Assembly: GCA_001799195.1 (NCBI GenBank)
Contig: MGSU01000130.1
Coordinates: 1-10,485 of the forward strand
Reading direction: 5' to 3'
From: Deltaproteobacteria bacterium RIFOXYA12_FULL_61_11
Lineage (GTDB): Bacteria > Bdellovibrionota_F > JAHFAK01 > YA12-FULL-61-11
DNA length: 10,485 nucleotides
Shown here: positions 1 through 8,924 of the stretch, one piece after another
How the letters are laid out: every line of letters begins with the position of its first letter
Numbering within the stretch: position 1 is the first letter of the stretch
The notes under the pieces: model-generated
What the model was told of the DNA's origin: nothing
What the model saw: only the letters and a program-made list of their open reading frames with translations
The model's database searches: none
Made by a program: the position numbers and the translations under genes

Positions 1-483
1 GGCAGCATCCAGCGCTTCGAGGGCTCCGAGGGCCACGGCGTAGCTGCCCTTCCCGCGTTGGCGTTCATGCACCTCGGCCGAGCCATCCAGACTGAGTTGG
101 ACCAGATCCAGTTCCTTCAATTCCTCGAGTCTCGCTGCGACCTGGTAGCCGCTCGTCGAGAGACCCACGAACATGCCGTGCTCCCGAGCCCGGGTGATCA
201 AGGCACCGAGCTCGCGTCGGAGCATCGGTTCGCCACCGGTGAATTGCACCTTGCGACAACCGGCTTCGGCTAACTCGTCGAGGGCCCGAAGGGCTTGGGT
301 CGGGCCGAGTTCCCCCTTCTCTCCTGCCTGGAGTTTCGTGTTGCAATAGCTGCACTTCCAAGGACAACGATACGTCAGCAGGTAATGCACGGCCAGCGGG
401 GCGCGGTGTCGAGGAAACACCTTCGCCGCGAGAGCGTGTCCTCCGAGGTAGGCCAGGGCCGAGAAAGAACGCAGACGATTCAT
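1..483 (-). CDS. Radical SAM protein, 3' end cut off by the window edge
   Basis: This is the N-terminal 161 residues of a radical SAM enzyme whose reading frame stays open to the left edge of the window. The cluster motif CPWKCSYC supplies C40, C44 and C47 (CxxxCxxC) for the 4Fe-4S cluster that cleaves S-adenosylmethionine. The GGEP motif at residues 83-86, which contacts the SAM amino group, and a SLDG strand at 131-134 follow as expected. The shape resembles PqqE/MoaA-like enzymes, but the C-terminus that would show a SPASM domain lies outside the window. The ATG at 483 is favoured because it overlaps the TGA of the upstream gene as ATGA. There is no strong Shine-Dalgarno, so translation probably depends on coupling. 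It is the sixth and most distal visible gene of the leftward operon, which may continue to the left. The substrate is unknown. Confidence 0.88.
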   Translation of the reverse strand, partial: MNRLRSFSALAYLGGHALAAKVFPRHRAPLAVHYLLTYRCPWKCSYCNTKLQAGEKGELGPTQALRALDELAEAGCRKVQFTGGEPMLRRELGALITRAREHGMFVGLSTSGYQVAARLEELKELDLVQLSLDGSAEVHERQRGKGSYAVALGALEALDAA

Positions 484-1952
484 TGTTTGGGTTTGTTCCG
501 CTCGGCTACATCGTCCCTGCGCTCGTGGCGGAAGAACTCTTGGCGCAAGCTGCGCCAGAAGATGAGCAGGGATTGGAGCCAGGAAGTTTTCGTGACGTAG
601 ATCTTGCGCCGCAGGACGAACATCTTGGCGAAATAGTACAGGACGGTCGACCAGGCCCGGTGGCGCAAGCCCAGGAAGTAGGGAAGGACGGGGCGGAGGA
701 TCGGCAGGACCACGACCACGGGGCCTAGAACCGCCAGATTGCGCAGGCGATTCTTGTGCTGCGAGGTGAAGCAATTGAGCGGCGAGCTGTGCTGATAGGA
801 GGTATGCATCCGGGCATAATCCTGGTCATAGAGACCTCGGCGAAGGGTCTCATCACCGAGCACCGTGCCCGGGTACGGGTGATAGGTCAGGAATTCCGCC
901 CAGTCGACCTTGCACCGGAGGGAGAGGTCGAGCGAGGCCAGATCGTCCTCGAGGGTGCTGTCGGGTAGACCAATGATGCAATTGGTGAAGGTATAGAGAC
1001 CGTAGCGTTCGCAGAGCAGGTGGGCCCGAACGAGCGCCTGCTCGTCCATGCGACGGCGCAGGACCTTTTCGCGCAACTGAGGGTTAGCGGCCTCGATCGA
1101 CATGCTCACCGTACGGCAGCCCGCAGCCTTGAGCAACTTCACCATGGCTTCGTCGAGCAGATCGGCACGGGTCAGAACGAAGAAGGGCAGGCCGATCTCG
1201 CGAGGATAACGGGTCGCGAACTCCTCGAGCCAGGCATCGACCCTGAGGGCGAAGATATCGTCGTAGAACTTCACACAGGACAGCGGCCAACGCCGTCGAA
1301 CCTGGTCGATATCGGCCAGGACCCGGTCCACGGAGAAGCGGCGTATCCGCGTCCCCTCACCGGGGTAGAGCGCCCGCCAGGCGTGGTTGAAACAATACGT
1401 GCAATCGAAGGGGCAACCTCGCGACGTCATGAAGCTCTTGAGCGGGTAGCGTCCCATGGCCGTGCCGTCGTAGACCAGGGCAAAGTCCGGCGAAGGTACC
1501 CTGTCGAGCTCCTGCACCAGGGGGCGTAAGGGCCCGGGCTGAGTATCGGGGGTGACGAGATTGGGAATACCCGCGACCGGAGCCCCGGACGCGAGCGCGG
1601 CGAGCAGGTCGGTCATGGCCCCCTCGCCCTCGCCGCGGCATATGGCATCGAGGCGTCCCTCGTGCACTACCTCGGGATGGAAGGTGGGGTGCGGCCCGCC
1701 CATGATGGAGAAAGTACTGGGGTGCAGCTCTTTGATCGTGCGATTTATCGCAAGGTAATGTTTCGCTTCGCCGGTGAGGGCACTGTAGGCAACCACCTCG
1801 GGGGTCACGCGGAGCACGGTTTCTCTGAGGTCCATGCTGTTGACCTCACAGAGCTGCGCCTCGTGTCCTGCCGCTCGTACGACGGCGGCGATGGTACAGA
1901 GTCCGAGGGGAGCGACGAAATTCTCGCTCTTGAAGACGAAGAGGACCTTCAC
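480..1952 (-). CDS. Cobalamin-binding-domain radical SAM protein
   Basis: A 490-residue protein begins with a Rossmann-like B12-binding domain (about residues 1-150; MGGPHPTFHP near 84-93, CRGEGEGA near 105-112). A radical SAM domain follows with SRGCPFDCTYCFN (C180, C184, C187) and FYDDIF near 229-234. Members of this superfamily methylate unactivated carbons or make difficult C-C rearrangements; many act on lipids, sugars or natural products. The DxHxxG histidine that ligates cobalt in classical B12 proteins is not seen in the N-terminal domain, as is true of several B12 radical SAM methylases. The C-terminus is hydrophobic and basic (about 405-446), which could dock it on the membrane. The frame runs upstream to an ATG at 2045, but the GTG at 1952 is chosen. 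It forms a GTGA overlap with the transketolase stop, the protein begins with the expected KVLFV strand, and the extra 31 residues are arginine-rich antisense-like sequence. The substrate is unknown. Confidence 0.88.
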   Translation of the reverse strand: MKVLFVFKSENFVAPLGLCTIAAVVRAAGHEAQLCEVNSMDLRETVLRVTPEVVAYSALTGEAKHYLAINRTIKELHPSTFSIMGGPHPTFHPEVVHEGRLDAICRGEGEGAMTDLLAALASGAPVAGIPNLVTPDTQPGPLRPLVQELDRVPSPDFALVYDGTAMGRYPLKSFMTSRGCPFDCTYCFNHAWRALYPGEGTRIRRFSVDRVLADIDQVRRRWPLSCVKFYDDIFALRVDAWLEEFATRYPREIGLPFFVLTRADLLDEAMVKLLKAAGCRTVSMSIEAANPQLREKVLRRRMDEQALVRAHLLCERYGLYTFTNCIIGLPDSTLEDDLASLDLSLRCKVDWAEFLTYHPYPGTVLGDETLRRGLYDQDYARMHTSYQHSSPLNCFTSQHKNRLRNLAVLGPVVVVLPILRPVLPYFLGLRHRAWSTVLYYFAKMFVLRRKIYVTKTSWLQSLLIFWRSLRQEFFRHERRDDVAERNKPKQ

Positions 1953-2869
1953 GTGGTTGCGAACGCCCGAAGACGCCTGGTCACGGTCTCGAGCTCGAGA
2001 CCGACGATGGTCAGGAGATCTTCGCGGCTTCCGTACTGGCGGCATACTTGATCAGCTAATCCCAATCGCATCAGCCTGGGTCCGGGAGCCCGTTCGGCCA
2101 GGAGTTCGGCCACGGCGCTGCCCATCCCTCCGATGCGGGAGTGCTCTTCCAGGGTCGCGACGCGAGTATAGGTCGAGAGAGTCTGCCAGAGGGTTTCTTC
2201 GGGCAAGGGCTTGACCCGGTAGAGGTCGATGACCCCGATCTGGCCGAGTGTCGGTGCCAAGGCCTCAGCCGCGGCAAGCGCGGTGCGAACCATGCCGCCT
2301 GTGGCTACGATGCAGAGTCCCCGCCCTTTGCGCAGTTCGCGCCAACCGGCCGTAAAATCTTTATCGCCGGGAGCATAGATCAAAGGGGTTCCGGTACGGT
2401 CGAGGCGGAGGTAGCTAGGGCCGGGATGATCGAGCACCAGGTCCATGAAGACCCTGGCCTGGGTTTCATCACAAGGTGAGAAGACCTGCATGCCCGGTAG
2501 GGCACGCATCAAGGCCATGTCCTCGAGCCCGTGATGAGTCGGGCCGAGGGTCGAGTAATCGTACCCCGGGCCAACGCCCAACAACTTGACCGGGAGGCTC
2601 TCACAGCAGAGGTCTACCCTGATCTGCTCATAACAGCGCATGGTCACGAAGGGGATTATGGCATAGGCATACACCTTCTTCCCCTCCATGGCCAGACCGG
2701 CTGCCACGCCGATCATGTTCTGTTCGGCTATGCCAACGTTGATGATGCGCTCAGGCATCTCGGCCCGGAACTGGTCGAGCACGATGGCTCCGGTATCCGA
2801 GACCAGGAGGATGACGTCCTCGTTCTTGCGTGCAACCTCGTAGAGCGCTTCGAAGACAGCTTGTCTCAT
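1949..2869 (-). CDS. Split transketolase, C-terminal (pyrimidine-binding) subunit
   Basis: A 306-residue protein corresponds to the second half of transketolase. The pyrimidine-binding domain includes GIAEQNM, with E49 as the glutamate that activates thiamine diphosphate. It continues with FVTMRCYEQIR and GPTHHGLEDMALMRALPGM, both signatures of the family, and then the transketolase C-terminal domain (about residues 180-306). Two-subunit transketolases are known in archaea and in many bacterial sugar and natural-product clusters. They assemble with the N-terminal subunit and move a two-carbon ketol unit between sugar phosphates or related aldehydes. It follows the N-terminal subunit directly with an ATGA overlap and has its own GGAGGA ribosome site (2879-2884, spacing 9). 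Being inside a radical SAM/glycosyltransferase operon suggests a specialised substrate rather than the housekeeping pentose pathway, though that is inference. A 20-bp perfect palindrome lies in its last codons (1984-2003). Confidence 0.93.
   Translation of the reverse strand: MRQAVFEALYEVARKNEDVILLVSDTGAIVLDQFRAEMPERIINVGIAEQNMIGVAAGLAMEGKKVYAYAIIPFVTMRCYEQIRVDLCCESLPVKLLGVGPGYDYSTLGPTHHGLEDMALMRALPGMQVFSPCDETQARVFMDLVLDHPGPSYLRLDRTGTPLIYAPGDKDFTAGWRELRKGRGLCIVATGGMVRTALAAAEALAPTLGQIGVIDLYRVKPLPEETLWQTLSTYTRVATLEEHSRIGGMGSAVAELLAERAPGPRLMRLGLADQVCRQYGSREDLLTIVGLELETVTRRLRAFATT
1984..2003. repeat. 20-bp perfect palindrome inside the transketolase C-subunit gene
   Basis: The half-site CGGTCTCGAG is followed immediately by its exact reverse complement. 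It lies in the codons for the LELET segment near the protein end, about 31 bases before the GTG start of the cobalamin radical SAM gene. It could form a GC-rich mRNA hairpin near the GTGA junction, or be a product of Leu-Glu codon repetition. Confidence 0.8.
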
Positions 2870-3693
2870 CGGGAAAGTTCCTCCCTGGCTTGATCCAACA
2901 GTGGACCTGTGGGGACACGGTAGTGCCAGATGGGTTTCCGTTCCATGAAGGAAAGTCCCTTACCCTTGACCGTCCGGGCGATGAACACCAAAGGTCGCGA
3001 GTCGCGGCGTCCCTGCAAGGTGGTCAACGCTGGCACAAGAAGGTTGAAATCATGTCCATCTGCTATTTCAACGACTTCCCACCCAAAAGCCCGCCATTTC
3101 TCGGCAAAAGGCTCCAAGCCGACGGCCTCCTCCGTGAAGTCGATGGCCTGCTGTCCGTTGCGATCCACCACGGCGATCAAGCGGCCGAGCTTGTGTTGCG
3201 ACGAGAACATTGCCGCTTCCCAGATCGCCCCCTCCTGACACTCCCCATCGCCAAGCAAGGCCACCACCTTGTGCTTGCGGCCGTCGAGCTTGGCCGCTAA
3301 GGCCATACCGACGGCAAGGGCGAAACCATTGCCCAAGGATCCGGTAAAAGCCTCGACCCCGGGGACATTGGATTCCGAATGCCCTCCAAGCCGGCTACCG
3401 CGAGCGGTATACGTGAGCAGTTCCTCGACCGGGAAGAAGCCAAGGTCGGCGAGGATGGCATACAGCGCAGCGCAGGCTTGTCCCTTGCTCAACACGAAGC
3501 GATCGCGGTCTGGCCAATGCGGGTCTTTCGGATCGACCCGCAAGATGCCGGCGTGGTAGAGGGCGACCAGGAGTTCAGTACAGGAATATGCCGGGGCGAT
3601 GTGTCCGGCCCCAGCCGCAACACACATCTCCAGTACGGTGCGACGTACGTTCGCGGCACGATTCTTCAACTCGGCGGAGGTCAGGATGGTCAT
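2866..3693 (-). CDS. Split transketolase, N-terminal (TPP-binding) subunit
   Basis: A 275-residue protein corresponds to the thiamine-diphosphate-binding half of transketolase. Visible landmarks are GAGHIAP (H31), SKGQACAALYA (69-79), LGGHSE (H105), TGSLGNG (118-124), the diphosphate/Mg2+ motif GDGECQEG (148-155) with N179 downstream, and a C-terminal WHYRVP (256-261). Together with the adjacent C-terminal subunit it should form a two-subunit ketol transferase. Two positions differ from the usual family sequence. The SKGH/NGHG histidine is glutamine (Q72, codon CAA), and the residue usually His or Gln in TG(S/P)LG(H/Q)G is asparagine (N122). Both lie near the cofactor or substrate in known structures, so altered substrate preference is possible. 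The start at 3693 is backed by a GAGGGA ribosome site 6 bases upstream and an ATGA overlap with the glycosyltransferase stop. Confidence 0.93.
   Translation of the reverse strand: MTILTSAELKNRAANVRRTVLEMCVAAGAGHIAPAYSCTELLVALYHAGILRVDPKDPHWPDRDRFVLSKGQACAALYAILADLGFFPVEELLTYTARGSRLGGHSESNVPGVEAFTGSLGNGFALAVGMALAAKLDGRKHKVVALLGDGECQEGAIWEAAMFSSQHKLGRLIAVVDRNGQQAIDFTEEAVGLEPFAEKWRAFGWEVVEIADGHDFNLLVPALTTLQGRRDSRPLVFIARTVKGKGLSFMERKPIWHYRVPTGPLLDQAREELSR
2879..2884 (-). promoter_or_regulatory. Ribosome binding site of the transketolase C-terminal subunit
   Basis: GGAGGA on the minus strand, 9 bases before the ATG at 2869, within the end of the N-terminal subunit gene. Confidence 0.6.
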
Positions 3694-4445
3694 GGGTTTT
3701 CCCTCACGGTGGTGACTTGTCCGCTGGTCTTGAGCACGTGTACCGAGGCGAACAGGGTAGCGTAGTCAATCCCCAACTGCATGGCCGAACGGAAGCGCAA
3801 GGCCTTGGAATGCCCTGCCGACCGAGGCTCGAGCTTGACCGGCACCTCGACGAAGGTGAAGCCGGCTCGAATGGCCTTGATGAGACATTCTGCGTGGATG
3901 AAGAATCCCCTCGAGGTAGGTCGGACCTGATCGAATACTTCCCTTCGGTACACGATGGTACCATTGGTGTAGGCGAAGACGGTGCCGAAGGAAATGTTGA
4001 CCGACCACAGATAGGCAGAGGAGATGATTCTCCGTTGCAGGGATCGGACTCCTCGGTTCTGCACGAAAGGAACGACGATGTCGACTTGCTCCAGGAAAGG
4101 CAGAAAGGTGAGGACCTCGTCGAGATTGTTCTCTCCGTCCGCCGGCAGCCAGGTCAGCGCGGACATCCGGACATAGCGTAGTCCGGTGGTGAAAGCATGT
4201 CCGATCCCCTGATTGCGCTCGAGATGCACGGCCCGGAGGCGCGGTTCGCGAGCAGCGAGGTCATCGAGCAACTCACCGGTACGGTCGGTACTACCATCGT
4301 CAACCACGATCAACTCCGCAGCTTGTCCGCACTGGTCGAGCACCGTAAGCATGGTGGCGATGGTAGTCGGGAGGCAGTGCTCCTCGTTGAAGGCCGGTAT
4401 GATCACCGAGAGGCCCGGGATTCTGTCGTCGCGCGTCCTGCTCAT
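3690..4445 (-). CDS. Glycosyltransferase family 2, DPM1-like
   Basis: A 251-residue GT-A fold glycosyltransferase starts with the strand LSVIIPAFNEE (12-22). The nucleotide-sugar motif is ELIVVDDGSTD (D49, D50). The usual metal-binding DxD region reads PADGENN (101-107), so only D103 plus a nearby Glu are present. The size, lack of a transmembrane tail and overall pattern resemble polyprenyl-phosphate sugar synthases (Dpm1-like), which load a sugar from a nucleotide donor onto a polyprenyl phosphate at the inner face of the membrane. The acceptor here is not provable. The frame extends to an ATG at 4484, but the ATG at 4445 is chosen because it forms an ATGA overlap with the upstream gene and the extra 13 residues carry no family sequence. 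No Shine-Dalgarno precedes it, so coupling to the upstream radical SAM gene is likely. It is the second gene of the leftward operon. Confidence 0.88.
   Translation of the reverse strand: MSRTRDDRIPGLSVIIPAFNEEHCLPTTIATMLTVLDQCGQAAELIVVDDGSTDRTGELLDDLAAREPRLRAVHLERNQGIGHAFTTGLRYVRMSALTWLPADGENNLDEVLTFLPFLEQVDIVVPFVQNRGVRSLQRRIISSAYLWSVNISFGTVFAYTNGTIVYRREVFDQVRPTSRGFFIHAECLIKAIRAGFTFVEVPVKLEPRSAGHSKALRFRSAMQLGIDYATLFASVHVLKTSGQVTTVRENP
3700..3705 (-). promoter_or_regulatory. Ribosome binding site of the transketolase N-terminal subunit
   Basis: GAGGGA on the minus strand, 6 bases before the ATG at 3693, inside the end of the glycosyltransferase gene. In the leftward operon only the two transketolase genes have clear sites of this kind, which may raise their output relative to the coupled neighbours. 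Confidence 0.65.
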
Positions 4446-5506
4446 ATGAAATTCACGTGGGCCGAGGGATGGCGGAGCAGCCACAGGTAGCGATTGAGAG
4501 CGTCAAGTCGGCAGGCCGAGCGGCATCGTCCCAGGTCGTGTTCCTCTGCGAAACGCCTCAAGAGGGCGGTTCGGCGTGCGCCGAACAGGATTTCCTCCGC
4601 GCTGTCCAGGTGGAGGTCGCCGAGGAGATAGTCACGGTCCCCGACAAAAGTATGGCAGGGATAGACCTCGCCGCTGGCCATGACGAACGCGGCAAAGGCC
4701 TGCCCGAGACATCGATCGTACGGCTTCGGCAACGTGGTCCTGCGCATGGACTCGGCGCGGTAGTAGACGGTAAATTCCGCGGTATTCCAACGGGCCAGGG
4801 CGGTCTCGAGTTCCTGGTCAGCGGTGGTCAGACACCTGTCGAGCTCGCGTGAGACATTGCCGGGGTGAGGAGAATAGGGCTTGATCGAGAAATAATCCAC
4901 GCCCAGATAACGCAGTCTGGGGGCGAGCGCTTCGAGTTCGCCCACGTTCTCGGGGACCGTTACGACTTGCACCCCCACGGTACAACTCACCCCCAGGACC
5001 TTTTTGCGTTCGACGAGAACACCGAGATTCTGGAGGACCTGATCGAAACAGTGTTCAGGTACGCCATGGAGCCGGGCATAGGTCGAGGCACTGCCGGCAT
5101 TCAGGCTTACCCGCAACCAGGTCAGGGAGGGTAACAAAGCCGTAGCGAGGGCCTCGTTGAGGAGCAACCCGTTGGTAGTCAGAGCGAGGTCGAGACCGAG
5201 AGCGCGGATGGCCGGCACCAGGTTCCCGACTTCCGGGTGGAGCAAGGGTTCGCCCTCACCTGAAATGAGAACGGAGCGCAGACCCTTGGCATGCGCCTCG
5301 GTCAAGAAGGGCAAGAGGACCGAGGGTTCAAGTTGGGCGTTGGTCGGGCGGAGGTATTCGAAGGCGCAGAAGGCGCAATGGCAGTTGCACAAGGACGTCA
5401 GCCCGGTTTCGAGATAGATCGGAGCGATGTTCTTGCCCTGGAGCCAACGAGCGACAACCACAGGATGGAGGTGCAGCTTATGGCCGTCGAGTTCGAGGTT
5501 GCTCAT
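4442..5506 (-). CDS. Radical SAM protein with twitch/SPASM-like C-terminus
   Basis: A complete 354-residue radical SAM enzyme opens the leftward operon. The cluster-binding loop is CNCHCAFC, giving C40-x3-C44-x2-C47 with an extra C42 inside the loop. GEGEP at 83-87 is the SAM amino-group motif. The C-terminal part has C266-x12-G-x4-C284, then C328-x3-C332. This matches part of the SPASM pattern, but the middle Cx2Cx5C cysteines are absent, so a single auxiliary 4Fe-4S cluster (twitch-like) is most likely. Related enzymes include the cyclitol dehydrogenase BtrN (twitch) and the PqqE/anSME peptide modifiers (SPASM), so a sugar, cyclitol or peptide substrate is possible. A TAG stop two codons upstream limits the start, and no strong Shine-Dalgarno precedes the ATG. 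Its TGA overlaps the glycosyltransferase ATG. Confidence 0.9.
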   Translation of the reverse strand: MSNLELDGHKLHLHPVVVARWLQGKNIAPIYLETGLTSLCNCHCAFCAFEYLRPTNAQLEPSVLLPFLTEAHAKGLRSVLISGEGEPLLHPEVGNLVPAIRALGLDLALTTNGLLLNEALATALLPSLTWLRVSLNAGSASTYARLHGVPEHCFDQVLQNLGVLVERKKVLGVSCTVGVQVVTVPENVGELEALAPRLRYLGVDYFSIKPYSPHPGNVSRELDRCLTTADQELETALARWNTAEFTVYYRAESMRRTTLPKPYDRCLGQAFAAFVMASGEVYPCHTFVGDRDYLLGDLHLDSAEEILFGARRTALLRRFAEEHDLGRCRSACRLDALNRYLWLLRHPSAHVNFI

Positions 5507-5714
5507 GCTCTACGAGTCTCGAAAGTGTTGTCGGGATCATAAACCATGACTTTTCCCAAGACCATCTTTTTCCAAAGGCGGGTTCCAGAATGCTGAGCCT
5601 CGTGGTTGCATGCGACCTCCTCGAACTGCCAGGTTCACAAAATTACACTTCCTTTTCGATGCCGCTGTGGTAGGACCACTTGGTCGATTGACCATTGGGA
5701 AACCTCCTTTCGCG
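5507..5714. other. Divergent intergenic region between the radical SAM operon and the DedA gene
   Basis: This spacer separates the leftward operon from the rightward DedA gene and should hold both promoters. On the minus strand a -10-like TATGAT lies at 5536-5541, which would start transcription near 5529, but no matching -35 box is clear. A short minus-strand reading frame of 20 codons (ATG at 5565, inner ATG at 5547) ends in a TGA that overlaps the ATG of the radical SAM gene. It is too short to call a gene. On the plus strand, overlapping inverted repeats GACCA/TGGTC/GACCA (5674-5694) lie just before the DedA start, and TAGGAC at 5671-5676 resembles the -10 boxes near hisS but lacks a good -35. 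Confidence 0.5.
5674..5694. repeat. Overlapping inverted repeats upstream of the DedA gene
   Basis: Three 5-base half-sites alternate in orientation: GACCA (5674-5678), TGGTC (5681-5685) and GACCA (5690-5694). They form two perfect inverted repeats sharing the middle arm, with spacers CT and GATT. They end 20 bases before the DedA ATG at 5715. They could be an operator for a dimeric regulator or alternative mRNA hairpins. The arms are short, so chance is not excluded. Confidence 0.35.
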
Positions 5715-6353
5715 ATGCAGTTCTTCCAAGAGCTCGTCACCTATTTCCAGAACTACCCCTATATCGCCGTCCTCTTGGCCTTCGGACTGATCCTCGTCTT
5801 CATCCCGATTGCCGAAGAAGTCATTCTCTTCACCGGTGGCTATCTCGCTTCTCGACACGACGACCAGATCTGGTTGCCCACTTTATTGGCCGGTATCCTC
5901 GGGGTATTCCTTACCGATTATTGGTATTATTACTGGTTCAAGAGGTTCGGGCCGCGGCTGCTGAGTACTCGCTTCGGCCGGAAAATGCTCTCGGTACAGC
6001 AAGAACAGCAGTACGCGGGACTAGTGAAGCGCTACGGAGCCTGGATGGTGGTGGCCGTGCGTTTCGTCCCCGGAGGCTTGCGCAACCCTACCTTCGCCAT
6101 TTGCGGATTATCCCAACTTCCCCAGCTCAAATTCATCGTCGCCTCACTCGGTACGGCCTGTTTCACCTCACAGATCACCTTTTGGCTCGGTTACTGGATG
6201 GGCGACGAGATCGAGAACTTCGACCAACTCATTGCCACGATAGAGGCCAATGCCCGCATAGTGATCCTGGTCGTGGCAGCCTTGTTCGCCGGTTTCGTCT
6301 TGCTGCGCCGGACGCTGCGCCGTCTGGGACAGCCCCGAAACCTCATTCGGTGA
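5715..6353 (+). CDS. DedA-family (SNARE-associated) inner membrane protein
   Basis: A 212-residue polytopic membrane protein of the DedA/VTT family. These are proton-coupled transporters, some of which flip lipids such as undecaprenyl phosphate or phospholipids across the inner membrane. The acidic re-entrant segment shows IPIAEEVILFTGGYLA (E34, E35). D68 follows in LGVFLTDYWYYYW, and the conserved arginine segment reads RFVPGGLRNP (R116, P119, R123). Hydrophobic segments lie around 12-45, 54-75, 137-163 and 181-198, and the usual family length of about 200-220 residues is met. The frame extends upstream to an ATG at 5610, but the added 35 residues are not family-like. The ATG at 5715 gives the normal N-terminus, although its ribosome site is weak. 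Its 3' end overlaps the convergent thioredoxin-like gene by 11 bases. A role in lipid-carrier recycling for the adjacent operon is conceivable but unproven. Confidence 0.87.
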   Translation: MQFFQELVTYFQNYPYIAVLLAFGLILVFIPIAEEVILFTGGYLASRHDDQIWLPTLLAGILGVFLTDYWYYYWFKRFGPRLLSTRFGRKMLSVQQEQQYAGLVKRYGAWMVVAVRFVPGGLRNPTFAICGLSQLPQLKFIVASLGTACFTSQITFWLGYWMGDEIENFDQLIATIEANARIVILVVAALFAGFVLLRRTLRRLGQPRNLIR

Positions 6354-7668
6354 GCGGTTTTTCCAGGTCTTTGATTCTCTTTTCGAGCTTCTCCACATAC
6401 CGATGGGAACGGACCTTGAGCGAGGGTTGGACCTGTTGCCGTTCCAGTTCCTTCTTCAAGGATGCCGCCACCTGGTAGCGGGCGAGGTTCTCGCGCAGAT
6501 CGGTCTCGACCTTCACCACGAACAGGGCATTGTCGCCATAGGCATAGCGTTTTGCCTTGGCAATAGCCTCCAGCCCCTCGGCGTAGCGTCCTTGAGCGTT
6601 CAGGAACTTTGCTTGGTGATAATGGATAGTAAATTCATCGGGATAGGCTTTCAAGAGGGCTTCGAGTATCCGTTGCTGGCCTTCGATGTCCGCGAGCATA
6701 CGGTAATACGCGAGCAGGGTCAGCCCAAGACTCTTCGCCGGAACACGGGTCTTGGCCAGCGCTCCTTCCAGGCTCTCGCACGCAAGGGTCAGGTAGAGTC
6801 GACGTTTGTCGTTCTCTCCCATGAGCTCTGCGAAATCGGCCAACTGGACGTAGACTTCCGCGAGCTCGACCGGATCATCCCTCCAGAGCGAGAGGGCATC
6901 AAGAAGCTGTTGCAGGGCAGCTCCCACTTCCTTGCGGTACACCTGAGGATCGGCATTGCGATCGAGACAGGACAACCGTCGCGCCAAAGCTGCCGGCAAG
7001 GCGCGGGTCTTCTCCACAGCCGCGAGCCACATTTCGGCATGCTGGAGACAGCGTTGCTTGGCGGAGAGCCCTTCGTACCAATCGGCTGCGACTTTATGAT
7101 AGTTGAGGTTTTCCTCGGTCGGGAGTTTTGCCAACTCGGCCGCTACCGTATAGAAGCCGAGCGCTTGCTCCGCCCGATCGGTCTCGGCATAGAAACGGGC
7201 CAGACGCAACAAGTCCAGCCCCAGTTTCTGGTCGGCTCCCAACCTCGTGAGGACCTGGTCCACCGAGGAACCGAGAGTCGTATGCCGGTCGAGCGTGGCA
7301 GCGAACTGCTCCGGGGCTTCGGTCCCGACGAGCCGGCCCAATTCAGTGCCATCCGGCGCAAGGAAGAGGATGGTCGGATAGCCACCAATTGTGTAGCGGT
7401 CTTTGAGGGCAAAGCTGTCCTGGGCATCTGCATCGAGCTTGAGAGGAATATAGACGGCCGCGGCGGCGACGACCATGGGATGGGGATAAACGAATTCATT
7501 GAGATAGTTGCACGGGGGGCACCAACGGGTATGGAAGGCGACAAGGAGCGGCTTCTTCTGTTGTTTCGCCTCCTCGAAGGCCTTTGAGGGTTGTTCCCTC
7601 CACGGTATACCCGTACCGGCAAGAGCAGTGGAACAGAGCATCAGAGCGAAAAGTAAGGCGAACTTCAT
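6343..7668 (-). CDS. Exported thioredoxin-fold protein with helical TPR-like C-terminus
   Basis: A 441-residue protein has an N-terminal Sec signal peptide (basic K2, hydrophobic 3-16, probable cleavage after ALA at 17). A thioredoxin domain follows, with a CPPC redox motif (C50, C53) in HTRWCPPC and the cis-proline loop GGYPT (P98). Residues from about 150 to the end are helical and rich in alternating Ala/Leu/Tyr, and look like degenerate tetratricopeptide repeats. Proteins of this layout are thiol-disulfide reductases or scaffolds in the periplasm; the partner is unknown. The cysteine near the signal (LMLC) does not fit a lipobox well. The ATG at 7668 has a strong GGAGGA site 5 bases upstream (7674-7679) and overlaps the stop of the upstream iron-sulfur gene as ATGA, so the two are co-transcribed. 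Its 3' end overlaps the convergent DedA gene by 11 bases. Confidence 0.88.
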   Translation of the reverse strand: MKFALLFALMLCSTALAGTGIPWREQPSKAFEEAKQQKKPLLVAFHTRWCPPCNYLNEFVYPHPMVVAAAAVYIPLKLDADAQDSFALKDRYTIGGYPTILFLAPDGTELGRLVGTEAPEQFAATLDRHTTLGSSVDQVLTRLGADQKLGLDLLRLARFYAETDRAEQALGFYTVAAELAKLPTEENLNYHKVAADWYEGLSAKQRCLQHAEMWLAAVEKTRALPAALARRLSCLDRNADPQVYRKEVGAALQQLLDALSLWRDDPVELAEVYVQLADFAELMGENDKRRLYLTLACESLEGALAKTRVPAKSLGLTLLAYYRMLADIEGQQRILEALLKAYPDEFTIHYHQAKFLNAQGRYAEGLEAIAKAKRYAYGDNALFVVKVETDLRENLARYQVAASLKKELERQQVQPSLKVRSHRYVEKLEKRIKDLEKPLTE

Positions 7669-8924
7669 CGATTTCCTCCAAGAAGGACAATGGTAGAAGC
7701 GTCTGCGATGAGAACCTCTCCTGCGATCGGAGCATGGACCGGCCGATGGCTGCGGTCACCGCTGGCAATGCACTCGCCGAGGACGACCCGTTGACCGGGG
7801 GACACCAGCGGAGTGGCGGGTTCGTCGAGAGGGTTCGTGCGCAGGACGACCTGGTCGGAATCGACTCTCTCCAGCCAATAACCCGGACGCAACGAGCGCT
7901 GCACCTCGAGGAGGTTGGTCGCGGTGAGGACGTGTCGCCATGGTAGACTAGGTCCTCGACGCGATGGGATCCTCCCCTGAAGACGGCTCGGGGGAAGTGC
8001 ATACCCCCGACCTCGCAACTCCTCGGCGACGGCCCTGAAGACCGTTGCCGGAGACAACCCCGAGGGACATACCAACTCGCAGGTCCTACAACCGGAACAG
8101 AACAAGGTCGAGAGTATCTCCTCGGGGACATGGGTGTGGCGGTCGGCCAGGAGGCGCAGCACGAGGTGCGGAGTGAAGGCTACGCCGCGAAGGTGCTGAG
8201 GGCAATACTCGCTGCAGCGGGAGCATTGCTCACAAGTCGAACCCGCGAGCCTGAGTTGGTGTTCGGCCGAAGAGGTGCGGGTCAGGGCCGGATGCTCGGA
8301 AGACAGCAACAACAGCACCCTGCTGTCGGCCTCGATCACGGGGTCGGGACAAGGACGCGACAAGCCACGCAGAATGCCTCCGAGCAGAGCACGGGTATCT
8401 CGCGGAAGCGAGAGGCCGAGTTGCTGGATCATCAGTCGGAGCGGGGTACCAAGAGGGACCGAGACCAAGCGGGGGGTACGACCCTCCCCGGCAATCGTGA
8501 CCGTGGTCCTGGTCACGGGCAGCTTGTCCTTGGCTGCTTCCTCGAGTTGGAGCAGTTCGTCGACGCGCAGAAGGAGGAGATCCTCGGGCTCGACACGAGG
8601 AGTTGCTGTAGCAAGAGCAAGGTCGACAAGGGAACCCGGATCGTTCAGAGAAGAACGTCTCGGCACTTCGACGATAATAGGTTCCCCTGGTCCTGTCGGA
8701 AACCTCCGTACCCCTGAAGGGAGATCGTCGTGGATAAGGACGACCACCCCGGCCGCGCACAGGTCCTTGCCCAACCGACGAACCGCTTCAATGACACGAT
8801 CGGTCGCCAGGAGGAACAGGGCCTCCGGCGCCAGATCGAAGGGCTCGGTCTCGAGAGCGACGACGACCAAAAAGGGGCGTCGTCTCGGTGGAGTGGTAGG
8901 CCATTCGGTAAGACAGTAAGCCAT
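7665..8924 (-). CDS. RnfC/PduS-like dicluster 4Fe-4S protein lacking the N-terminal flavin half
   Basis: A 419-residue protein carries two classic ferredoxin-type motifs: C231-x2-C234-x2-C237-x3-C241-P and C276-x2-C279-x2-C282-x3-C286-P. An SLBB-like region precedes them (about 140-200). A C-terminal barrel-sandwich (biotinyl-like) domain ends the protein, with RPVHAPIAGEV at 394-404. This order is that of RnfC and of the cobalamin reductase PduS. Those proteins begin with a Gly-rich FMN/NADH-binding segment. Here the protein starts only at the position of their ECEP strand, which reads ETEP (25-28), so roughly 100 N-terminal residues are missing. A TAG stop four codons upstream shows the frame is not simply longer. 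It likely passes electrons between clusters, but the donor and acceptor are unknown and it may need a separate flavoprotein. It heads a two-gene operon with the thioredoxin-like gene. Confidence in the fold is good, in the role low. Confidence 0.78.
   Translation of the reverse strand: MAYCLTEWPTTPPRRRPFLVVVALETEPFDLAPEALFLLATDRVIEAVRRLGKDLCAAGVVVLIHDDLPSGVRRFPTGPGEPIIVEVPRRSSLNDPGSLVDLALATATPRVEPEDLLLLRVDELLQLEEAAKDKLPVTRTTVTIAGEGRTPRLVSVPLGTPLRLMIQQLGLSLPRDTRALLGGILRGLSRPCPDPVIEADSRVLLLLSSEHPALTRTSSAEHQLRLAGSTCEQCSRCSEYCPQHLRGVAFTPHLVLRLLADRHTHVPEEILSTLFCSGCRTCELVCPSGLSPATVFRAVAEELRGRGYALPPSRLQGRIPSRRGPSLPWRHVLTATNLLEVQRSLRPGYWLERVDSDQVVLRTNPLDEPATPLVSPGQRVVLGECIASGDRSHRPVHAPIAGEVLIADASTIVLLGGNR
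7674..7679 (-). promoter_or_regulatory. Ribosome binding site of the thioredoxin-like gene
   Basis: GGAGGA on the minus strand, 5 bases before the ATG at 7668 and inside the last codons of the upstream iron-sulfur gene. It confirms the chosen start and signal peptide. Confidence 0.75.

Follow-up and report, generated by a model that had tools for sequence, protein, structure and literature searches.

A split transketolase among radical SAM enzymes: a candidate operon for two-carbon-extended sugars on a polyprenyl carrier

What product would call for three radical S-adenosylmethionine (SAM) enzymes, a transketolase divided into two chains and a glycosyltransferase, all encoded in a single operon? 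The question is raised by a stretch of 10,485 nucleotides (hereafter, the window) that constitutes the entire contig MGSU01000130.1 (C130) in the draft genome of Deltaproteobacteria bacterium RIFOXYA12_FULL_61_11 (GCA_001799195.1; 4.64 Mb, 342 contigs, 87% complete). Six consecutive genes on the minus strand encode, in the order of transcription, a twitch radical SAM enzyme (4442-5506; 354 aa; Pfam Radical_SAM and SPASM), a family 2 glycosyltransferase (GT2) of the polyprenyl-phosphate sugar synthase type represented by ArnC and dolichol-phosphate mannose synthase (DPMS) (3690-4445; 251 aa; Glycos_transf_2), the N-terminal, thiamine pyrophosphate (TPP)-binding subunit of a split transketolase (TKN; 2866-3693; 275 aa; Transketolase_N), its C-terminal subunit with the Pyr and TKC domains (TKC; 1949-2869; 306 aa; Transket_pyr and Transketolase_C), a B12-binding radical SAM enzyme (480-1952; 490 aa, GTG start; B12-binding and Radical_SAM) and the first 161 codons of a third radical SAM enzyme, the 3′ part of which is cut by the contig end (1-483; Radical_SAM); because the contig begins at position 1 of the window, no further genes can be read to the left of it. 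All six genes, together with the 4-base overlaps at each of the five junctions (ATGA, ATGA, ATGA, GTGA, ATGA), are present as described in an earlier sequence-only reading of this DNA; for the B12 enzyme, the GTG start was preferred to a longer open reading frame (ORF; 480-2045), which is a mechanical extension. Our preferred reading, at a probability of about 0.5, is that the operon builds a glycan precursor, a sugar extended by two carbons and probably C-branched, and attaches it to polyprenyl phosphate. The individual reactions, the sequence in which they occur and the final compound are all what we infer from observed features, namely, the gene set, its conserved linkage, the exchange of transketolase-type and E1-type enzymes in one slot, the active-site changes, and the family and fold relations.

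The association of these genes is conserved far beyond the window, as a search for their co-occurrence across genomes demonstrated. The twitch enzyme, detected in 20 of a set of 290 genomes, both related and distant (E ≤ 1e-20), served as the anchor for a scan of the genomes of 85,000 species, from which the best 80 loci were kept by similarity alone; ORFs in the GC-rich relative loci were chosen by homology guidance. A downstream stretch of 4 kb or more was available at 62 loci; of these, 51 encode a two-subunit TPP enzyme just downstream of the twitch gene on the same strand, and outside this slot the same loci contain four two-subunit TPP matches in 964 kb. The genes thus form a module that recurs rather than a neighbourhood arisen by chance, and versions of it occur in Omnitrophota, Nitrospirota, Planctomycetota, Elusimicrobiota, Myxococcota, desulfovibrios and methane-oxidising archaea. 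The same slot beside the twitch gene is filled by pairs of two types, transketolase-type (n = 22) and pyruvate-dehydrogenase-E1-type (PF00676; n = 29). The core of the system consists of the twitch radical SAM enzyme and a two-subunit TPP enzyme, more commonly of the E1 type than of the transketolase type. Cassettes composed of the twitch enzyme and a split transketolase were also observed in two archaeal loci (L112 and L118; an uncultured archaeon and Candidatus Methanoperedens BLZ2), which suggests horizontal transfer.

The closest relatives of the complete operon share the order twitch radical SAM, E1-alpha, E1-beta, GT2 and B12 radical SAM. There are eight such loci, six of which (L096, L110, L123, L124, L129 and L150) are labelled Deltaproteobacteria and are placed by the tree in Myxococcota; the other two are L107 and L127. 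The B12 gene is followed by a family 9 glycosyltransferase (GT9) in seven of the eight and by a member of one radical SAM family, here denoted rSAM3p, in six, so that the window's combination of three radical SAM enzymes with a TPP pair and a GT2 is found again in these relatives. The third radical SAM enzyme of the window belongs to a family other than rSAM3p, and its best relative (45% identity; L119:3079-4131) lies within a cluster of SPASM, E1, GT2 and B12 genes. At one further locus, the GT2 is fused to an rSAM3p radical SAM enzyme (L063:12116-13735; 540 aa), a direct physical link between the two activities.

The B12 enzyme traces the same association. In a tree of 66 homologues, the window protein falls within a 14-member clade with support of 100/100, together with two Omnitrophota proteins (58% and 54% identity) and eleven more, all of them encoded at twitch loci. 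Because these loci had been selected via the twitch gene, 334 Omnitrophota genomes were searched with the B12 protein alone. Nine orthologues were recovered (43-59% identity), followed by a gap to 37%, and all nine have GT9 and/or rSAM3p downstream, a count in which one contig ends after GT9 and L176 has several intervening genes or carries the pair on the opposite flank of the B12 gene. At one of these loci (L179), TKN (55%) and TKC (50%) are encoded upstream. A search of the same genomes with TKC alone yielded six genomes with a match at 50-64% identity, including four of the nine B12 genomes (hypergeometric P ~4e-6, with the 50% line drawn post hoc); in G473 and G559, these transketolase genes adjoin those for the twitch enzyme and GT9.

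What could be the task of the slot downstream of the twitch gene? E1-type and transketolase-type enzymes both hold a two-carbon carbanion on TPP, of the acetyl type or the ketol type. Their interchange in one slot suggests that the job of this slot is the addition of a two-carbon unit to the product of the twitch enzyme. A crude motif search found no lipoyl/E2 motifs around the E1-type pairs. Two-subunit TPP enzymes have been proposed to add two-carbon units to ketosugars in Streptomyces antibiotic clusters, namely, AviB1/AviB2 for the eurekanate of avilamycin and Pau11/Pau12 for paulomycose, and E1-type pairs likewise occupy the slot of the sister clusters, whereas the window encodes a transketolase-type rather than an E1-type pair and places it among radical SAM enzymes in a glycan setting. 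The keto acceptor of the AviB and Pau systems derives from dehydratase routes. In one of two described routes, the E1-like AviB1/AviB2 is assigned to two-carbon branching of a 4-ketosugar (PMC4425429). The role of AviB1/AviB2 and the interchange of the two TPP enzyme types therefore lead us to propose a keto-forming step by the twitch enzyme followed by two-carbon addition. The twitch enzyme would abstract hydrogen from a C-H group of a sugar and turn that carbon into a ketone, an oxidation within the reach of DesII or BtrN, whereupon the split transketolase, freed from phosphosugar recognition, would add a two-carbon ketol unit (the glycolaldehyde carbanion) to the carbonyl; in the sister clusters, the E1-type alpha/beta pair would instead contribute an acetyl unit, in the manner suggested for AviB1/AviB2. 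The sugar may then be deoxygenated in an AprD4-like reaction or C-methylated by the B12 radical SAM enzyme, with the third radical SAM enzyme perhaps contributing, and the GT2 would attach it to polyprenyl phosphate, from which GT-C-type transfer would pass it on to a surface glycan or a protein. The cassette would thus be an uncharacterised but recurring variant of two-carbon sugar modification. The open-access literature searched (radical SAM with transketolase and O-antigen, capsule or heptose) contained no paper on such a cluster, which agrees with the initial impression that the combination is not a recognised system.

The active site of the split transketolase bears on this proposal. TKN retains the TPP-binding GDG...N motif, and TKC retains the catalytic Glu (equivalent to human Glu366) as well as R358 and R520 (E. 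coli numbering; human R318 and R474). The residues that recognise the phosphate and C2-OH of the substrate, S385, H461 and D469 (human S345, H416 and D424), are replaced in the window by I, G and L, respectively, so the pair lacks the hallmarks of a pentose-phosphate transketolase (EC 2.2.1.1); the matching of human to E. coli positions, like the functions assigned to H461 and R358, is general background. Among split transketolases encoded within 5 kb of a twitch gene, Asp469 is kept in 1 of 38 and replaced by Leu in 34, and His461 is replaced in all 38, whereas Asp469 is kept in 7 of 16 split transketolases with no twitch gene in reach (Fisher P 4e-4, ignoring shared ancestry). Covariation of the R91-D469 salt bridge was uninformative, R91 being missing from all split transketolases in this set regardless of whether Asp469 is kept. 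In many cassettes (L055:10925-11422, L058:12080-12583, L088, L090, L093 and others), the TKC subunit is only ~165 aa long and has no Transketolase_C domain. In E. coli transketolase, S385 contacts the substrate phosphate, and S385, D469 and R520 have been mutated to shift the enzyme from phosphorylated to non-phosphorylated aldehydes (PMC5073344).

Could the pair nevertheless serve the pentose phosphate pathway and be merely co-located with a glycan operon? A split transketolase can fill this role: that of Carboxydothermus hydrogenoformans is biochemically active and is the sole transketolase of its host (PMC7661550). This enzyme (6yaj/6yak) is the nearest solved split-chain relative and has the same two-chain architecture as the window pair, but it retains the equivalents of S385, H461 and D469, whereas the cassette enzymes have lost His461 and Asp469 and often the C-terminal domain. 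Moreover, the genome of the window (G000) carries a separate full-length transketolase on contig C161 in which S385, H461 and D469 are all retained, and in different phyla the split enzyme remains linked to the twitch gene. A housekeeping role is, accordingly, very improbable, and the window pair is predicted from its residues to be a specialised enzyme.

The twitch enzyme would have to supply the carbonyl. Its core CxxxCxxC cysteines (C40, C44 and C47) are invariant among 44 aligned relatives, and so, in alignments of 13 and 44 relatives, are the auxiliary cysteines C266-x17-C284...C328-x3-C332, whose spacing is predicted to be that of a one-cluster twitch pattern, not a seven-Cys SPASM domain. 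Thus, of the combined twitch/SPASM label originally given to this protein, the radical SAM and twitch parts hold, whereas a full SPASM domain is absent. The C-terminus (...HVNFI) is family-specific. The nearest fold of its AlphaFold2 model (pLDDT 92) is DesII (Z 25.5, 3.9 Å over 334 residues), tied with SkfB (Z 24.6) and followed by SuiB (Z 24.1), the nucleoside-sugar decarboxylase BlsE (Z 23.4) and the cyclitol dehydrogenase BtrN (Z 19.0). BtrN carries a similar four-Cys twitch pattern. DesII, BlsE and BtrN have this fold in common with the twitch enzyme but share ~20% identity with it and differ in neighbours and substrate, and the scores lie far under the DesII (NCBIfam TIGR04426, 30.5 bits versus 450) and BlsE cut-offs. 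DesII oxidises TDP-quinovose at C3 (PMC11434129). The presence of SkfB and SuiB among the top folds, and of peptide and metalloenzyme maturases among the best NCBIfam matches of the radical SAM enzymes, could point instead to maturation of a ribosomally synthesised peptide or a cofactor, with incidental sugar genes. However, all family scores fall far below their cut-offs, no precursor peptide gene was noticed, although no systematic search was made for one, sugar genes are neighbours throughout, and the GT2-radical SAM fusion exists; such a function appears improbable.

The B12 enzyme is a putative cobalamin-binding (class B) radical SAM protein, with an N-terminal PF02310 domain followed by PF04055, both above cut-offs. 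The nearest fold of its model (pLDDT 88.7) is the amino-sugar diol dehydratase AprD4 in complex with paromamine (Z 28.4, 3.3 Å over 407 residues), with the methylase MgmA within 1 Z unit, and in sequence, too, AprD4 is the closest of the solved structures. The two differ in gene neighbourhood and in the hydrophobic C-terminal helices of the B12 enzyme, and the score against the AprD4 family is 91.8 bits, below the cut-off of 500 (NF033070). Since no curated NCBIfam cut-off was passed by either this or the twitch enzyme, their likeness to AprD4 and DesII is a lead to the chemistry, not evidence of membership. The C-terminal hydropathy over 19 residues is 2.06 in the window protein and weaker in several relatives, a predicted feature compatible with a membrane-bound substrate. 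The same feature, along with below-threshold matches to HpnR, HpnJ and ladderane models, would fit a pathway in which the radical SAM enzymes alkylate a hopanoid-like or ether lipid that the GT2 then glycosylates. Against this, no lipid-scaffold genes were noticed in the clusters inspected, and the GT9, GT-C-like and UbiA neighbours better suit lipid-linked sugars, leaving a modified lipid a small probability. The genome of the window is unusually rich in enzymes of this kind, with at least 26 matches to B12-type radical SAM proteins.

The glycan setting is most evident from the GT2 and the neighbours of the cassettes. A profile of the cassette GT2 family aligns with DPMS and ArnC along almost the entire domain, which marks the protein as a predicted polyprenyl-phosphate glycosyltransferase; it shares with them the GT2 fold and the C-terminal R..G.SK motif but has no obvious transmembrane extension. 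In many loci, the twitch gene is preceded by genes for a nucleoside diphosphate-sugar epimerase, a GmhA-like SIS protein and a cytidylyltransferase-PfkB fusion (the parts of HldE in reverse order), and further neighbours include a GT4-type phosphosugar transferase, UbiA, GT-C-like and TPR-repeat membrane proteins, and methyltransferases. A deoxyhypusine-synthase/ArgZ-like protein recurs beside the GmhA and HldE-like genes (L057:7965-8978 and relatives). A cultured organism, Solidesulfovibrio carbinolicus DSM 3852, has a related cluster on plasmid pDCAR1 together with pseB, pseC, pseF and a sialic-acid-synthase-like gene. At L107 (8707-11324), the related operon has as its neighbour a TPR-repeat membrane protein with a type IV pilin-like ORF on either side; there, the modified sugar might be transferred to pilin. 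Of the original suggestion of an unusual sugar on a lipid carrier, destined for a surface glycan or a membrane lipid, the glycan part is thus upheld by the polyprenyl-phosphate-type GT2, GT9, GT-C-like proteins, UbiA, GmhA/HldE-like and pseudaminate genes, and the membrane-lipid product finds little support.

The same neighbours underlie the main competing explanation, linear chain extension, in which the transketolase pair would lengthen an aldose phosphate by two carbons to a higher ketose, the GmhA-like isomerase and HldE-like kinase/nucleotidyltransferase would activate it, and the radical enzymes would decorate the resulting nucleotide heptose or octose. The HldE-like and GmhA-like genes upstream of the twitch gene in many loci and the GT9 (heptosyltransferase-family) neighbours in the B12 subset favour it. 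It fits less well because GmhA and HldE both accompany E1-type pairs (10 loci) about as often as transketolase-type pairs (11 loci), and the 1-deoxyketose formed by an E1-type enzyme could presumably not be isomerised to an aldose. In addition, the phosphate-contact residues of the transketolase are lost, GmhA and HldE are missing from the window, and its genome has only weak HldE-like matches. We therefore consider chain extension unlikely, albeit not to the degree of the other alternatives.

Several observations weigh against two-carbon branching on a polyprenyl carrier. Linear chain extension would employ the same TPP enzymes, the similarity to DesII and AprD4 amounts to ~20% identity, and folds do not fix reactions. 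The nearest B12 relatives (L073 and L074) have no TPP pair in the fetched stretch, nor do 11 of the 62 twitch loci, so the modules can act apart; the Omnitrophota transketolase genes (50-64% identity) lie on a separate contig in several genomes. In the genome of the window, a search for GT9 gave no match, and the rSAM3p homologue (43%) is on contig C300, unlinked to the operon. Joining the two contigs was considered and rejected, as this gene is not at the contig end and has an unrelated neighbourhood.

A handful of antibiotic and O-antigen pathways are known to give sugars a two-carbon branch. It is conceivable, although this generalisation is more tentative than the reading of the operon itself, that the cassettes represent a widespread new class in which a carbonyl made by a radical SAM enzyme at an unactivated sugar carbon is alkylated by an interchangeable two-subunit TPP enzyme (glycoloyl/ketol for the transketolase type, acetyl for the E1 type), yielding branched sugars on polyprenyl carriers in many phyla of uncultured bacteria and some archaea. 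If so, radical SAM oxidation coupled to an exchangeable TPP enzyme would hint at a large range of surface sugars yet to be explored, and the cassettes would be a source of enzymes ready for making C-C bonds on sugars. A simple sequence marker for the cassette is available in the residue pattern of the transketolase, and the S. carbinolicus cluster is available in culture.

In the remainder of the window, a divergent gene on the plus strand (5610-6353; Pfam VTT_dom) encodes a DedA/VTT-domain membrane protein. A promoter and terminator scan and a repeat search around the intervening gap (5507-5610) gave nothing above chance. The DedA/VTT protein weakly resembles the undecaprenyl-phosphate transporter UptA (58.5 bits versus a cut-off of 250) and is possibly related to the pathway of the operon. 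Beyond it lie genes for a thioredoxin-domain protein, an RnfC-like protein and HisS. The RnfC-like gene (7665-8924, minus strand) overlaps the thioredoxin-domain gene by 4 bases and abuts the divergent hisS; the domains of its product are apparently permuted, the SLBB/ferredoxin part occupying residues 18-305 and the RnfC_N barrel-sandwich lying C-terminally at residues 367-405.

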